Assembly (NCBI GenBank): GCA_016208485.1
Contig: JACQXY010000043.1
Location: forward strand, 1 to 57,743
DNA from: Acidobacteriota bacterium
GTDB taxonomy: Bacteria; Actinomycetota; AC-67
DNA length: 57,743 nt
Direction of reading: 5' to 3'
In this document: piece after piece, positions 9,361 through 14,378 of the stretch
Layout: each line of letters opens with the position of its first letter
How positions within the stretch are numbered: position 1 is the first letter of the stretch
The notes under the pieces: generated by a model
What the model was told of the DNA's origin: nothing
Database searches by the model: none
Seen by the model: only the letters and a program-made list of their open reading frames with translations
Translations under genes and position numbers: made by a program

Positions 9361-12300
9361 CTATGCCCCCGCCGAGCCGGGGCTCGCGTGCCAGAGCTTC
9401 CGTGGGGGCTCCGGCGCGGGGGCGGCGTGCGGGCGCAGGGCGGCGACGGCGGCCGGCCGGGGTTGCGGCGCATCTGGACGGCGGCCCGCGCGGGACGCGC
9501 GACGCCGCTCGCGCTCGGCGGCCTCGATCTCCTCCACGCCGTCGCCCCAGAGCGCCGGCGCGTCCAGAGTCCCCTCCTGGTAGGCGCGCGAGAGCGCGGC
9601 GAGATCCCATGCGCGCTCGCAGTTGATCGAGATCCCCCGCGCGCCGGTCTTGCGGATCGTCCCGCGCACCGCCAGGAGCCAGGAGTGGAACACCGTCCGG
9701 GCGCAGTGCTCCTGCACGCTCTCGAACACCGTCGCGTCCACGAGGCCGGTCGCGTCGTCGAGCGTGAGGAAGATGATCCGCTGCCCCGAGCGCACGGCCG
9801 GGGTCTGGGAGGCCACCTTCACCCCGGCAACCATCACCCGGCTCCCCTGCCGCTTCGCGCGCAGCCCGGTCGCGCGAGTCACCCCGAGCGCGCGGAGCAC
9901 CGGATCGTAGAACGAGAGGACGTGCCGGCTCGCGTCCATCCCGAAGACCTCCAGCTCGGCGCGCACGCGCTCGGCCGGAGTGTAGTCGCGCAGACCGAAG
10001 TCGGTGCGCGACTCCTCCAGGGAGAACGCGATCTGCGCCGGCCGGGGAGCAGAGGCGCCCCGTGCCCCCCAGAGGTCGCACGCCTGAACCCAGAGGTCCC
10101 TCCGCCGGCCGAACGCGTCGAACGCGCCGGCGTGGATCAGGGCCTCGGCCACCGGGCGGCTCACCCGCGCGCGCCGGCAGAAGTCGGCGAGCCCCGCGAA
10201 GGGTCGCTCGGCGCGCGCGCCGAGGATCGCGTCGATCTCCTCGCCGGAGATCCCCTCGACGTGCATCAGCCCGATCCGCACGCCGAGTGTGTCGCGCGCG
10301 TCGCGCTCGACCGTGTAGTCGCGCTCGGAGAACCGGACGTCGAGCGGCAAGACCCTCACCTGCTCGTGGCGCGCGTCGTCGAGGATCGCGCGCCGCGGGT
10401 ACATCCCCGGCTCGTGGGTGAGCACGCCGGCGTAGAACGCCGCCGGGTGGTGGGCCTTGAGCCACGCCGACTGGTAGGTCGGCACCGCGAAGGCCGCCGC
10501 GTGCGCCTTGCAGAAGCCGAACGCGGCGAAGCTCGATACCTCGTGCCAGACGGCAGCGATCTCCTCGTCGCGCCAGCCGTTCGCGCGGCCGCGCGCGCGG
10601 AACCACTCCCCGATCGCCGGGACGCGGTCGGCGTCCTCGAGCGCGCGGCGCACCTCGTCGGCCGCGCCGAGGTCCACTCCCGTCGCCGCCGAGATGGCTC
10701 GCATCACCTGCTCGTGGAACACGATCCCCCCGAAGGTCTCGCGAAGGAACGGCCGGAGCGACGGGTGCGCGTAGACCGGCATGTCGAAGCCGTGCCGGCG
10801 GAAGAGATACGGCCCGACCATGTCGCTCCGCACCGGGCCCGGGCGGAAGAGCGAGATGTCCACGATCAGGTCGCGCCACTCGGTCGGCTGGAGCTTGCCG
10901 AGCAGCTCGCGCTGACCCGGCGACTCGATCTGGAAACAGCCGAGCGTGCGCGAGGCGCGGATCAGGTCAAAGGTCGCCGGATCGTCGCGCGGGATCCCGC
11001 CGAGGTCGATCCGCTCGCCGGTCGCGCGGGAAACCTCGCCGACGGCATGGGTCATCGCCGAGAGCATCCGCACTCCCAGCACGTCGAGCTTGAGCAGCCC
11101 GAGCGCGGCGCAGTCCTCCTTGTCGAGCTGCGCCATCCGGAAACCCTGCGCGCTCCGCTCGAGCGGCGCGCGGCTCGCAAGGTCGCCGGGGACGATCAGG
11201 ATCCCCGAGGGGTGAAGCGCGGGATGGCGTGGGAAACCGCCGAGCCGTTCGGCGACCGAGAAGAGCAGGTCGAGCTGCCCGGCGCCGAGCGAGCTCCCGC
11301 GCAGCTCGGGGAGACGGCCGAGCGTGTCCCGGATGTGCTCGGCGCCGACGTGCGGGAACGACTTCGCGACCAAGCCGACCTCTCCCTCGGGGTAGCCGAG
11401 GGCCTTTCCGACCTCCCGAATCGCGCCGCGCGCGCGGTAGGTGTCGATCATCGCTACGCATCCCACCGACTCCTCGCTCAACCGAGGGACCGCGCCGCCG
11501 ATCGAGCCTCCCGGACCCCCGTGCGACAAGCCGGCGAGGATCTCGCGGTAGACGTCCTCCCGGCGCGCGCTCTCGACGTCGAGGTCGATGTCGGGCGGCT
11601 CGCTCACCCGGTGGGGATTCACGAACCGCTCGAAGAGCAGGTCGTGCTCGATCGGATCGACATCGCTTATCCCGGTGAGGTAGCAGATGAGCGAGCCGGC
11701 GCCGGATCCGCGGCACGCGGAGCGGATCCCCATCGCGCGGATGCGCGCGGCGATATCCGAGATGGTGAGGAAGTAACCGGAGAAGCCGAGGCGCGCGGTC
11801 ATGACCAGCTCGGCGTCGAGCCGTTCGCGCAGCGTCCGCGACCGGGAGAGCCCGCGGCGCGCGATCCCCTCCCAGCAGCGGCGCGCGAGCGCCTCGTTCG
11901 CGGTCGCCCCGGGCGGGAGCGGGTAGACGGGGAGCTGCGGGCGCCCCGTCTCCATCTCGACCTCGCACTCCTCGGCGAGGAGCCACGCGTTCTCCAGCAG
12001 GTCCGGCCGGCCGCGGAAAAGCGCCGCCATCTCGGCCGGCGACTTCAGGATCGCCTCGTGGTTCCGGTTGTCCCGGTGGTGCTCGGCGACGGGGACGAGC
12101 TTGCGCATCGCGTCGAGCACGTCGGCGAGGAACGCATCGGAGGAGTCGAGCGCGCGCACCCCGTTCGTCGCGACCGCGCGCAGGCCCGCCTCCTCGGCGA
12201 GCGCGAGCGATCGGGCGAGGAGGGCCTCCCATCCGGGCTCGAGGAGGTTTCGCACCTCGACCAGCAACCGGCGCGTGCCGAACGCCTCGAGCCAGGCGCG

Positions 12301-12831
12301 CAGGCGGTCGCGCGCCGGATCGAGCGCGCGGAGGGCGACCAGGCGTCCGACGTCGCTCTCCGGCCCGAGGAGGCAGAAGAGGCCTTCGGCACGGGCGCGG
12401 ACGTCCTCGAACGTGGCGCAGGGATCGCCGCGCTCGGGCGGGTCGCCGCGCTCGGGCGGGTCGCGCGGCGACCGGGCGTCCCCGCCGTGCGCGGCGGTCA
12501 GGATCCGGCAGAGGTTGGCGTAGCCGCGCCGGTCGCGCGCGAGGAGGGTGACGACGGTGCGCGCGGCGCCGGCGGGGTGCGAAGCCGGAGAGATGCCGGC
12601 TCGCTGCGCGCGGCCGATGGTGACGCGCGCGCCGAAAACCGGCTTGATCCCCTCGGCCCCGCACGCCAGGGCGAAGCGCACCGCGCCGTAGAGATTGTTC
12701 GAGTCGGTGAGCGCGACCGCGCGCATCCCGAGCGCGCGCACGCGCGCCGCAAGCTCCTCCAGGCGCACCGCGCCCTCGCGGAACGAGTAGATCGAGCGGA
12801 CCGACAGGTGCGCGAACCTCGGGGAAGACAT
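9361..12831 (-). CDS. dnaE2: Error-prone DNA polymerase III alpha subunit (DnaE2/ImuC)
   Basis: Replicative-type C-family polymerase of 1156 residues, the length expected for DnaE2. The N-terminal PHP domain starts HLSVRSIYSFREGA, with Arg where a metal-binding His usually sits, so PHP exonuclease activity is doubtful. The catalytic region shows SACRGSGAGSLICYLTG, ERFVNPHRVSEPPDIDLDVE (two catalytic Asp) and LKLDVLGVRML (third Asp). The C-terminal OB fold reads MVAGVKVASQTPAVRSG. It supports mutagenic bypass of DNA damage. The downstream dinB and upstream DUF6504 gene complete a translesion module that lacks imuA and a true imuB in this window. Confidence 0.95.
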   Translation of the reverse strand: MSSPRFAHLSVRSIYSFREGAVRLEELAARVRALGMRAVALTDSNNLYGAVRFALACGAEGIKPVFGARVTIGRAQRAGISPASHPAGAARTVVTLLARDRRGYANLCRILTAAHGGDARSPRDPPERGDPPERGDPCATFEDVRARAEGLFCLLGPESDVGRLVALRALDPARDRLRAWLEAFGTRRLLVEVRNLLEPGWEALLARSLALAEEAGLRAVATNGVRALDSSDAFLADVLDAMRKLVPVAEHHRDNRNHEAILKSPAEMAALFRGRPDLLENAWLLAEECEVEMETGRPQLPVYPLPPGATANEALARRCWEGIARRGLSRSRTLRERLDAELVMTARLGFSGYFLTISDIAARIRAMGIRSACRGSGAGSLICYLTGISDVDPIEHDLLFERFVNPHRVSEPPDIDLDVESARREDVYREILAGLSHGGPGGSIGGAVPRLSEESVGCVAMIDTYRARGAIREVGKALGYPEGEVGLVAKSFPHVGAEHIRDTLGRLPELRGSSLGAGQLDLLFSVAERLGGFPRHPALHPSGILIVPGDLASRAPLERSAQGFRMAQLDKEDCAALGLLKLDVLGVRMLSAMTHAVGEVSRATGERIDLGGIPRDDPATFDLIRASRTLGCFQIESPGQRELLGKLQPTEWRDLIVDISLFRPGPVRSDMVGPYLFRRHGFDMPVYAHPSLRPFLRETFGGIVFHEQVMRAISAATGVDLGAADEVRRALEDADRVPAIGEWFRARGRANGWRDEEIAAVWHEVSSFAAFGFCKAHAAAFAVPTYQSAWLKAHHPAAFYAGVLTHEPGMYPRRAILDDARHEQVRVLPLDVRFSERDYTVERDARDTLGVRIGLMHVEGISGEEIDAILGARAERPFAGLADFCRRARVSRPVAEALIHAGAFDAFGRRRDLWVQACDLWGARGASAPRPAQIAFSLEESRTDFGLRDYTPAERVRAELEVFGMDASRHVLSFYDPVLRALGVTRATGLRAKRQGSRVMVAGVKVASQTPAVRSGQRIIFLTLDDATGLVDATVFESVQEHCARTVFHSWLLAVRGTIRKTGARGISINCERAWDLAALSRAYQEGTLDAPALWGDGVEEIEAAERERRRASRAGRRPDAPQPRPAAVAALRPHAAPAPEPPRKLWHASPGSAGA

Positions 12832-12913
12832 CTCACACCACTCGATCTAGACCTTGACGCCATGGCCGTCTACGTTGGCGCGCGGCGGTGGGTCCGCGTT
12901 GCACCACGGGTTC

Positions 12914-12945
12914 GAGGAGCGGGGAAACCCGCTCCTCGCTTTTTC
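12914..12945 (+). terminator. Rho-independent terminator of the truncated first array unit
   Basis: Ten-base-pair stem GAGGAGCGGG / CCCGCTCCTC with a GAAA tetraloop, followed by GCTTTTT. Identical stem and loop to the other two array terminators. Confidence 0.85.
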
Positions 12946-12989
12946 CGGACGATCCCGTCGCCGAGCCCTCACAGCCTCTTGCGAATCGC

Positions 12990-12995
12990 TACCAT
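12990..12995 (+). promoter_or_regulatory. -10 box of tRNA-like gene 1
   Basis: TACCAT, 12 bases before the tRNA-like gene. The surrounding TTGCGAATCGCTACCATCGC is conserved in both units; no standard -35 is seen at 17 bases. Confidence 0.5.
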
Positions 12996-13007
12996 CGCGA
13001 CGGCGGT

Positions 13008-13080
13008 GGGCCCGTGGGGTAATGGACAGCCCAGGACCCTGACGAAAGTCCAGGAGGCAGTTCGAATCCGTCCGGGCCCA
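13008..13080 (+). tRNA. tRNA-like gene 1, loop CTGACGA (GAC, Val-like), irregular
   Basis: The acceptor stem GGGCCCG/CGGGCCC is perfect, with discriminator A73; no CCA is encoded. The D arm GGGT-AATGGACA-GCCC and T loop TTCGAAT are canonical. The anticodon arm is irregular: in standard register the 5-bp stem fails (GGACC against AAGTC), and only an enlarged loop restores GGAC/GTCC pairing; the T stem has one A-C mismatch. Standard numbering puts GAC at 34-36, which with A73 would suggest valine. Bases 25-40 of this RNA are perfectly complementary to 13186-13201 downstream. It may be a decoy or specialised tRNA rather than a translating one. Confidence 0.65.
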
Positions 13081-13149
13081 CCCCTTCTTGAGCAAGGTGG
13101 GACCCTCGCCGGGGCGGCCAACAGGGATATCCGCTCCGCCATCTGGCAC

Positions 13150-13178
13150 TTGACTCACTCTGCGGCGCAGCCGAAGAT
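13150..13178 (+). promoter_or_regulatory. Promoter of guide-like RNA 1
   Basis: TTGACT (13150-13155), 17-base spacer, GAAGAT (13173-13178). The same geometry recurs in unit 2. The predicted start site falls at about 13185, next to the tRNA-complementary segment. Confidence 0.5.
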
Positions 13179-13184
13179 GGCTGT

Positions 13185-13253
13185 GTTTCGTCAGGGTCCT
13201 GTCCGATACCCACGGGCATGCGAGGAGCGGGGAAACCCGCTCCTCGGCTTTTT
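13185..13253 (+). ncRNA. Predicted small RNA 1, 5' end antisense to tRNA-like 1
   Basis: From the predicted start to the terminator is about 69 bases. The first 16 bases, TTTCGTCAGGGTCCTG (13186-13201), are an exact reverse complement of 13032-13047, the anticodon arm of tRNA-like 1. A conserved box (TCCG..CACGGG) and the terminator stem follow. If transcribed alone it would be a guide-like RNA with a variable 5' end on a constant scaffold; if read through from the tRNA it would be a trailer able to refold onto the anticodon arm. Confidence 0.5.
13222..13253 (+). terminator. Rho-independent terminator of array unit 1
   Basis: Stem GAGGAGCGGG/CCCGCTCCTC, GAAA loop, then GGCTTTTT. Confidence 0.88.
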
Positions 13254-13298
13254 CCGGACGGTCCCGTCGCCGAACCCTCGCCGCCTCTTGCGAATCGC

Positions 13299-13304
13299 TA
13301 CCAT
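13299..13304 (+). promoter_or_regulatory. -10 box of tRNA-like gene 2
   Basis: TACCAT 12 bases before tRNA-like gene 2, in the same conserved context as unit 1. Confidence 0.5.
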
Positions 13305-13316
13305 CGCGGCGGCGGT

Positions 13317-13389
13317 GGGCCCGTGGTGTAACGGAAAGCACAGGGCTCCGACTAAGCCCCGGGAGACGGTTCGAATCCGTCCGGGCCCA
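13317..13389 (+). tRNA. tRNA-like gene 2, anticodon GAC (Val-like) with C33
   Basis: Folds as a complete cloverleaf: acceptor GGGCCCG/CGGGCCC, D arm GTGT-AACGGAAA-GCAC, anticodon stem GGGCT/AGCCC, loop CCGACTA, 5-base variable loop, T arm GACGG-TTCGAAT-CCGTC, A73, no encoded CCA. GAC at 34-36 and A73 would fit valine, but position 33 is C where U is nearly invariant. The anticodon arm differs from copy 1 while the acceptor and T-arm 3' halves are identical. Bases 13346-13357 are the exact reverse complement of 13494-13505 in the same unit. Confidence 0.72.
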
Positions 13390-13458
13390 CCCCTTCTCTT
13401 GAAGAGGGGACCACCGCCGGGGCGGCCAACGGAAGATAACCGCCCTGCCACCCGGCAC

Positions 13459-13487
13459 TTGACCCTCTCCTTCCCGGAGCGGAAAAT
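13459..13487 (+). promoter_or_regulatory. Promoter of guide-like RNA 2
   Basis: TTGACC (13459-13464), 17-base spacer, GAAAAT (13482-13487). Predicted start at about 13494, exactly where the tRNA-complementary segment begins. Confidence 0.5.
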
Positions 13488-13493
13488 AGAGAT

Positions 13494-13560
13494 GCTTAGT
13501 CGGAGTCACGTCCGTGCATCACGGGTTCGAGGAGCGGGGAAACCCGCTCCTCGGCTTTTC
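13494..13560 (+). ncRNA. Predicted small RNA 2, 5' end antisense to tRNA-like 2
   Basis: About 67 bases from predicted start to terminator. The 5' segment GCTTAGTCGGAG (13494-13505) is an exact reverse complement of the loop and flanking stem bases of tRNA-like 2. Next comes a small hairpin CCGTG-CAT-CACGG, then GGTTC and the common terminator. Compared with unit 1, changes in the antisense segment match the changes in the tRNA loop, so the pairing is kept although the sequence differs. Confidence 0.5.
13529..13560 (+). terminator. Rho-independent terminator of array unit 2
   Basis: Third identical stem GAGGAGCGGG/CCCGCTCCTC with GAAA loop, followed by GGCTTTTCC. Confidence 0.85.
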
Positions 13561-13571
13561 CGGGAACCATC

Positions 13572-14009
13572 TCAATCCCACACCCGGAAGAGACTCCACT
13601 CCCCCTTGCGGAGGTCGCGCGCGATCTCATAGGTGCCGGGCGCGCTCCCGTTCGACCGGGGGGCTACCGCTCCGCTCCCTGAGCCCCCCGGACCCCCGTT
13701 CGGCCGGGGGGCTACCGCTCCGCTCCCTGAGCCCCCCGGACCCCCGTTCGACCGGGGGGCTACCGCTCCGCTCCCTGAGCCCCCCGGACCCCTGCTCGCC
13801 GTCGCGACAGCATCGACGCGCAGGATCTCGCGCGCGTCGCCGGCCGCCCACGGCTTCCGCGAGTCGCCGCTCGCCTCCCACCACCCGCCGGCCTCGCGCC
13901 AGCGGCAGAGCACCTGCCGGACGAGGTAGCGCCTGCCGCGCCACCAGAACGCCTCGATCGATCCTTCGGGCGCCTCGACCGAGATCGGGTCCTCATATCG
14001 CTTCGACAT
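13572..14009 (-). CDS. DUF6504 family protein with an in-frame repeat insertion
   Basis: Small protein typical of actinobacterial dnaE2/imuB neighbourhoods. The N-terminal half is recognisable (MSKRYEDPISVEAPEG, AFWWRGRRYLVRQVLCRW, REAGGWWEAS), as is the C-terminal piece YEIARDLRKGEWSLFRVWD. Between them, about 48 residues are made of three near-identical 16-residue units (GPGGSGSGAVAPRSNG), encoded by a 48-bp tandem repeat that is not part of the family. It stays in frame. Same strand as dnaE2, but separated from it by the tRNA-like array. The exact role in mutagenesis is not known. Confidence 0.85.
   Translation of the reverse strand: MSKRYEDPISVEAPEGSIEAFWWRGRRYLVRQVLCRWREAGGWWEASGDSRKPWAAGDAREILRVDAVATASRGPGGSGSGAVAPRSNGGPGGSGSGAVAPRPNGGPGGSGSGAVAPRSNGSAPGTYEIARDLRKGEWSLFRVWD
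13650..13793. repeat. Three 48-bp tandem repeats inside the DUF6504 gene
   Basis: Unit starts at 13650, 13698 and 13746; copies differ by about one base. Each carries the inverted repeat GGGGGGCT..AGCCCCCC. It belongs to a palindromic family also seen at 33.8 kb and 39.85 kb (shared GGGGGTC, CAGGGAGCG and GGTCGA blocks). Confidence 0.88.
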
Positions 14010-14378
14010 CGCCTGCCCGGACGCCGCGCCGGCGCCGGACCCCCTTCCCGCCCCTCAGATTCCCCGTCGATTCAGTATCGAACACATGTTCGAGGAACCC
14101 TTACCGTACGCCCGGCGGCGACAGCCGTCAAGACGAAATCGGAGGGTCGGAGAGAAGCTCGGATCGCGGTGGGTTCTGGGTGGGGCTACCTCCCCGGGGG
14201 CCCCACCACATCCGCGCGCACGGACCAGCGCGGGAGGAACACGGCGAGCACGCAGGCCGGACTCGAAGCCGAAGCCCGGCGTTCGTGTTCCACGTTCCTT
14301 CCCCTTTTCGCATGACGACCCTGCGGCTCAGCGGCTGGACGCCCGCCAAGCGGGCGGACGGTCCATTGCGGGCGCGAG
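14010..14378. other. Gap without a convincing gene
   Basis: About 370 bases between the methyltransferase and DUF6504 genes. Open frames exist on both strands but none looks like a real protein. There is a hairpin GTCCGCCCGC-TTG-GCGGGCGTCC (minus strand) shortly after the methyltransferase stop. I could not recognise an attC in it. Confidence 0.5.

Follow-up and report, generated by a model that had tools for sequence, protein, structure and literature searches.

Cis-encoded antisense RNA pairs, such as those of type I toxin-antitoxin systems and the plasmid RNAI/RNAII system, keep their match as their sequences diverge, and individual pairs are insulated from one another. In the repeated units described here, complementarity is likewise conserved by covariation, although the antisense segment (Z) is an inverted copy located downstream on the same strand rather than on the opposite strand, and the target is tRNA-like, with no toxin gene. 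As in the bacterial Y RNA YrlA, a tRNA-like module forms part of a putative non-coding RNA, but in the units it is found at the 5′ end and not within a terminal stem; a Ro60 (TROVE) gene was detected in none of the five genomes (0/5), the positive control being found in Deinobacterium. The loop of hairpin H2 pairs with the anticodon region in a manner that recalls the anticodon-specifier pairing of T-box riboswitches, from which the units differ in that this pairing is in cis, at positions ~29-34, and that no regulated downstream gene is present on that strand, the downstream gene lying on the other one; no Rfam T-box match was obtained up to E=5. The tRNA-Other of Bacillus cereus is a pseudo-tRNA within a larger regulatory RNA that is linked to a genomic island (PMC3399842). 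It also represents a tRNA-like element outside translation that is embedded in a longer transcript, although a downstream antisense copy of its 5′ half is not mentioned in the portion of the published description that served for this comparison, which is one of descriptions and not of sequences (PMC3399842). In CreTA, as outlined in part of the corresponding report, the tRNA-sequestering CreT RNA acts via a mini-ORF, and the CRISPR-like CreA requires CRISPR repeats and Cascade (PMC8501985). CreTA and the present units are alike as RNA-only modules that touch tRNA biology, but the units are, by eye, without the repeat-like elements of the outlined system (PMC8501985).

The window, that is, the whole stretch of 57,743 nt of DNA that was analysed, derives from a genome of 2.66 Mb (G000). 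Two units (U1 and U2) and the relic of a third (U0) are found on the plus strand in the gap between dnaE2 and a DUF6504 gene (Table 1). The units have a period of 309 bp and each consists, in order, of a promoter (P1), a tRNA-like domain, hairpins H1 and H2, a promoter-like site (P2), segment Z and an intrinsic terminator. A tRNA is called in each by both ARAGORN and Rfam (13007-13083 and 13316-13392). The first-pass annotation had reported inverted matches of 16 and 12 nt between the anticodon arms and downstream segments, together with a truncated third unit upstream. Both matches are exact, and the third unit is borne out by positions 12900-12948, where 49 nt of tail and terminator are repeated; it looks like a unit that has lost the whole interval separating the tRNA 5′ end from the tail.

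Table 1. Coordinates of the array and its flanking genes in the window, with the genomes and contexts of the related units.
Feature	Position or genome	Strand	Remarks
dnaE2	9361-12831	minus	Flanks array
U0, relic unit	12876-12948	plus	Start of tRNA 5′ strand fused to tail and terminator, interior lost; read directly; 94% to U2
U1 promoter P1	12968-12995	plus	−35 CTCACA, 16 nt, −10 TACCAT; ends 6 nt before tRNA-like RNA; −10 conserved
U1 tRNA-like domain	13002-13081	plus	Extended acceptor stem GGTGGGCCCG/CGGGCCCACC; Rfam tRNA 40.7 bits at 13008-13080; helix counts
U1 anticodon-arm segment X	13032-13047	plus	Exact 16-nt complement of 13186-13201
U1 hairpin H1	13082-13101	plus	Three doubly compensated pairs
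U1 hairpin H2	13108-13147	plus	Conserved middle domain; loop Y CAGGG at 13122-13126, complementary to X; model R2 finds this family only
U1 promoter-like site P2	13150-13178	plus	TTGACT-17-GAAGAT, 7 nt before Z; highest-scoring site in U1
U1 antisense segment Z	13186-13217	plus	Complement of tRNA-like 5′ half; predicted 5′ part of ~68-nt RNA 13185-13252
U1 intrinsic terminator hairpin	13221-13246	plus	
U2 promoter P1	13277-13304	plus	CTCGCC-16-TACCAT
U2 tRNA-like domain	13311-13390	plus	Rfam tRNA 51.0 bits at 13317-13389
U2 anticodon-arm segment X	13346-13357	plus	Exact 12-nt complement of 13494-13505
U2 hairpin H1	13391-13409	plus	Helix counts
U2 hairpin H2	13416-13456	plus	Loop Y CGGAAG at 13430-13435
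U2 promoter-like site P2	13459-13487	plus	TTGACC-17-GAAAAT, 6 nt before Z; only site from scan of 12850-13620
U2 antisense segment Z	13494-13525	plus	Predicted ~66-nt RNA 13494-13559
U2 terminator hairpin	13528-13553	plus	Same sequence as in U0 and U1
DUF6504 gene	13572-14009	minus	Flanks array
Unit L033	G001		dnaE2 context as in G000
Unit L037	G001		Contig other than that of L033
Unit L034	G002		Third genomic context

A DNA search of relatives yielded three further units, L033 and L037 in genome G001 and L034 in genome G002, whose tRNA-like genes are called by ARAGORN as Val-gac, Cys-gca and Leu-gag, in that order. Each has its own, differing anticodon arm and downstream segment (CACACGACTCTGACTAAG/CTTAGTCAGAGTCGCGTG, CACATCCCTGC/GCAGGGATGTG and CGCGTCCCTGAG/CTCAGGGACGCG), and in 3/3 of these homologues, at three different loci, the downstream segment tracks the arm and the cognate match is kept. 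The claim made from U1 and U2 that pairing is maintained while sequence changes is supported by three independent homologous units, none of which shows the mismatch between arm and downstream segment that the first-pass annotation had named as its refutation. In an alignment of all five units, which are so few, and of which L034 and L037 are so alike, that the covariation counts do not represent independent events, 11 pairs of the foldback helix are changed on both sides and ten compensated pairs are distributed over the T-stem, H1, D-stem and H2. The foldback helix is paired in 89.9% of cells, falling to 27-43% in slid controls, and its covariation score was equalled in 0/500 shuffles; the tRNA, H1 and H2 helices together are paired in 98.9% of cells. 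The H2 loop (CAGGG, CAGAG or CGGA) complements the anticodon-arm positions given above in its own unit, the cognate match being best wherever the loops differ, with two positions swapped compensatorily, in a comparison for which U2 and L033 were brought into register by manual deletion of a single loop base in each. Judged from this alignment, the H2 loop is a third covarying element.

Segment Z pairs with the entire 5′ half of the tRNA-like domain (~nt 3-19 and 24-40), interrupted at the 3′ strand of the D-stem by a 3-5-nt bulge. The complementarity initially described as antisense to the anticodon arm is real, but that label is too narrow because the whole 5′ half is matched, the pairing extending past the arm into the D-arm and 5′ acceptor strand (GCCCGTGGTGTA/TACACCACGGGC). 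Among the 70 distinct tRNA genes of the examined loci, which include the five units and were used as the chance control, exact complements of the tRNA 5′ half within the 260 nt downstream of it reach lengths of 11-16 nt in the five units and of ≤8 nt in the other 65, and a chance origin of the complementarity is excluded. The duplex energy between 5′ half and cognate tail is −47.7 to −59.8 kcal/mol in the five units; the corresponding energies for native tRNAs (median −36.4) make this a poor discriminator, and exact run length was used as the control instead. Over the anticodon segment, cognate pairing is the best of 120 permutations (total −127.3 vs −118.6 for the next), and within G000 each segment favours its own partner over the other (−28.4 vs −11.1 kcal/mol for U1, −25.9 vs −16.0 kcal/mol for U2). 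Neighbouring units are insulated from each other, as expected for antisense-controlled pairs. Short reading frames in the tail are alike in L034 and L037 and, by eye, are not kept in U2 or L033; the likeness is put down to the pairing constraint.

In all five units the cloverleaf scores above the gathering score of the Rfam tRNA family RF00005 (40.7 to 59.3 bits vs 29), and the T-loop is intact and the D-loop GG present. The acceptor stem is extended to ~10 bp into the leader and trailer, with H1 following directly, and the anticodon stem is mismatched in 4/5 units. GAC, GAG and GCA anticodons occur together with A73 on a nearly constant body, for which the closest native tRNA by rough alignment varies among Gln, Asp, Met, Gly and Arg. 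Known identity rules accommodate neither a 'Leu' of class I with GAG nor a 'Cys' with A73, and native Val-gac and Cys-gca genes are present in G000. The domain thus departs from a functional tRNA, with its 5-bp paired anticodon stem, 7-bp acceptor stem with a free 3′ end and consistent identity. From the extended acceptor, the stem mismatches and the mixed anticodons, we infer that the domain serves either as a tRNA-shaped structure or as an aberrant tRNA.

The −10 box of P1 (TACCRT; TACGGT in L033) is kept in all five units, 6-7 nt upstream of the initial G of the tRNA-like RNA. By sequence, P1 resembles the native tRNA promoters of G000, with that of Leu-taa being ATGACT-17-TACCAT and P1 of L034 having the same pattern (ATGACT-17-TACCGT). 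Further downstream, the conserved end of H2, CACTTG, provides the TTGNNN of P2 in 5/5 units, and is followed by 16-17 variable bases, GARRAT (GAAGAT, GAAAAT, GAGGAT, GAAAAT and GAGAAT in the five units) and, 6-7 nt on, the first base of Z. In a consensus promoter scan of 12850-13620, P2 of U2 was the one site returned (shuffles mean 0.0), and P2 ranks first among the promoter-like sites of its unit in U1, U2 and L033, second in L037 and third in L034. The P2 −10 sequence is weaker, being without the first T of native TANNNT boxes. With such a site 6-7 nt ahead of Z in every unit, a separate RNA of 66-70 nt is probable, for which Z would serve as the 5′ seed. The separate antisense RNA proposed in the first-pass annotation is plausible in view of this site, and its predicted length is near the ~68 and ~73 nt then suggested, although the −10 is weak and Z may act in cis. 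The predicted P2 transcripts (68 nt in U1, 66 nt in U2) fold as the terminator hairpin plus a small hairpin (z −2.95 and −4.18), the 5′ seed being unpaired in U1 and weakly paired in U2. Terminators are located only at the very end of the unit. In the full-length RNA the foldback is predicted to be more stable than the tRNA fold by 10-21 kcal/mol in all five units, and prefixes shorter than ~180-200 nt mostly retain the acceptor stem; for a P1-only RNA of ~250 nt, refolding at the expense of that stem is predicted only after synthesis of the tail. Given the stability of the foldback in a read-through transcript, Z could also act in cis, and the cis and trans modes rely on one conserved pairing.

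It is proposed, with about even confidence, that each unit may be a self-contained non-coding locus in which a tRNA-like RNA is controlled by its own co-evolving antisense RNA. The housekeeping-type promoter P1 would make an RNA that begins with the tRNA-like domain, and P2, embedded at the end of the conserved H2 block, would start an antisense RNA of 66-70 nt. In the latter, the unstructured 5′ ~15 nt would be complementary to the anticodon arm and the small hairpin to the D-arm together with the 5′ acceptor strand, with the shared terminator forming the 3′ end. Such an RNA could seed on the anticodon loop and zip along the 5′ half, abolishing the tRNA fold, while in a P1 read-through transcript Z would do likewise in cis once transcribed; selection would hold each pair matched and insulated from its neighbours. 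The sequences, their complementarity, its covariation in five units at three loci and the promoter-like and terminator signals are direct observations, whereas transcription, a separate antisense RNA and inactivation of the tRNA-like RNA are inferred. The simplest purpose would be antisense control of a non-canonical tRNA-like effector, as a type I-like or a regulatory RNA pair; that the freed tRNA-like RNA interferes with translation is a guess. A fuller version, which is tentative and on balance doubtful, describes an RNA-only module. Its effector would be a non-canonical tRNA that possibly mistranslates or interferes with translation, its antidote an anti-tRNA RNA that co-evolves with the effector and seeds on the anticodon loop, and duplicates would diverge into insulated pairs. 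If true, this would to our knowledge be the first tRNA-targeting antisense RNA pair of such a kind.

The same pairing could alternatively belong to a one-piece bistable RNA, where a ~250-nt transcript first adopts the tRNA-like fold, its H2 loop in kissing contact with the anticodon loop, until its own tail converts it into a long rod, acting as a kinetic switch or as a tRNA-like sensor for a tRNA-binding factor with no separate antisense RNA. This is a possibility of some weight, albeit a minority one: the predicted preference for the foldback at full length and for the acceptor stem in shorter prefixes, the sole terminators at the very end of the unit and the covariation of the H2 loop with the anticodon arm are all consistent with it, but the conserved CACTTG and GARRAT, the near-fixed distance to Z and the variable spacer have the character of a promoter and not of RNA structure. 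It is improbable that the units represent MITE-like or quasi-palindromic elements derived from a tRNA gene and without an RNA function, the similarity of the arms being maintained through template switching or gene conversion. Three unrelated loci are occupied, including insertions between DUF6504 and dnaE2 in two genomes, and arms separated by a ~140-nt spacer might be homogenised at the DNA level, a matter on which the count of G-U vs A-C in the arms (4 vs 2) is too small to decide. However, the T-stem, H1 and H2 covary independently of both arms, the H2 loop covaries as a third element, the promoter, the terminator and the arm mismatches at the D-loop are all conserved, and copy number is not high.

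Slightly less probable again is a pre-tRNA with a cis-inhibitory tail, from which an ordinary tRNA would be freed by RNase P and RNase Z under some condition and used in translation. The Rfam scores, the intact T-loop and D-loop GG and promoters like those of native tRNA genes would suit such a precursor, whereas the ~10-bp acceptor stem running into H1, the mismatched anticodon stems, the three anticodons with A73 on a near-constant body and the native Val-gac and Cys-gca genes already present in G000 speak against it. Besides anticodon masking, the roles initially suggested include a variable-guide RNA system and a decoy for anticodon nucleases; these last two, in which the anticodon segment would be an interchangeable guide or a bait, are very improbable. 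This segment is indeed the most variable part of the unit and is copied in complement twice, but the U1-arm 16-mer has no other match with <2 mismatches in the genome, the neighbouring genes include no nuclease or guide protein common to the loci, and the variation has the appearance of slow covariation rather than exchange, leaving the variable-guide reading unsupported.

DUF6504 and dnaE2 are adjacent, ~20 bp or less apart, in genomes G002, G003 and G004, and are split by the element, on the opposite strand, in G000 and G001; by this gene order the element has been inserted into the dnaE2 operon of two genomes. The other two loci (L037 and L034) have no flanking genes in common, and the gene beside the G001 copy was found in no other family member. 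Judged by these unshared contexts and the insertion, the element has moved or been duplicated, though it is low-copy. A NOV_C-like gene lies next to the element in G001 and a weak PycTM-like ORF in G002. No partner protein common to the loci was found among the neighbouring genes, on which PADLOC yielded nothing beyond a weak PycTM hit. The G002 unit is flanked by two small ORFs for membrane proteins in which a similar 'LDSKAG' motif occurs (L034 917-1378 and 2308-2523), one of the two being weakly PycTM-like.

The covariance-model search of relatives that had been suggested as a check was carried out with models R1 and R2, the latter of the middle domain, over 397 Actinomycetota genomes and gave true hits in G000, G001 and G002 only. 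The other matches of R1 (best 53 bits vs 157-171 for the units) are taken to be ordinary tRNAs because R2 gives them no support. A scan of 84,980 genomes returned the contig of G002 itself and one chance match without a tRNA. Among the genomes searched, the element is found only in one family of Actinomycetota. The element had no match in viral, phage and plasmid collections, and a phage or plasmid element was rejected on that ground. Rfam identified only a generic tRNA in the units, and no described element of this layout was found in the literature. By eye, no CRISPR-like repeats or Cas genes were seen in the window or flanks. A normal tmRNA (RF00023; 139-152 bits) is encoded elsewhere in all five genomes, and no reverse transcriptase, as would accompany a retron or other retroelement RNA, is found beside the element, one being present on other contigs in each of G000 and G001 and none in G002. 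These reverse transcriptases (L101 1000-2580 and L100 1015-2451) resemble, by eye, group II intron proteins and are unlinked to the element. Because the tests for tmRNA, Y RNA, T-box and retroelement failed and the nearest described ideas differ, the units are assigned to a new kind of RNA locus; confidence is moderate for the two-RNA form and low for any specific function.

The evidence points to a real RNA control system, apparently undescribed, in a little-known actinobacterial branch. No described RNA family was found in which the 5′ half of a conserved tRNA fold also takes part in another pairing that is as well conserved as the fold and mutually exclusive with it. An antisense acting in trans would be a natural anti-tRNA RNA and provide a direct way to study the silencing of an individual tRNA-like RNA; with action in cis, the unit would be a natural two-state tRNA switch. 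Both modes would be novel in tRNA biology, and orthogonal parts could be drawn from the insulated pairs. The element is also mobile or duplicating enough to have entered an SOS mutasome operon (DUF6504-dnaE2) in two genomes.

Upstream of this operon in the window, a perfect palindrome at 14078-14093 (TCGAACACATGTTCGA) is like an actinobacterial LexA/SOS box, and a similar LexA/SOS-box-like sequence (CTCGAACGTATGTTCGAG) is present at L033. The non-coding RNA units are located, on the opposite strand, inside an operon that is apparently SOS-inducible. The DUF6504 gene itself contains an in-frame insertion of three 48-bp palindromic repeat copies (13647-13798), and its relatives match only residues 1-71 and about 116-145. 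A stretch similar to this insertion may occur at G000:C69:10795-11124.
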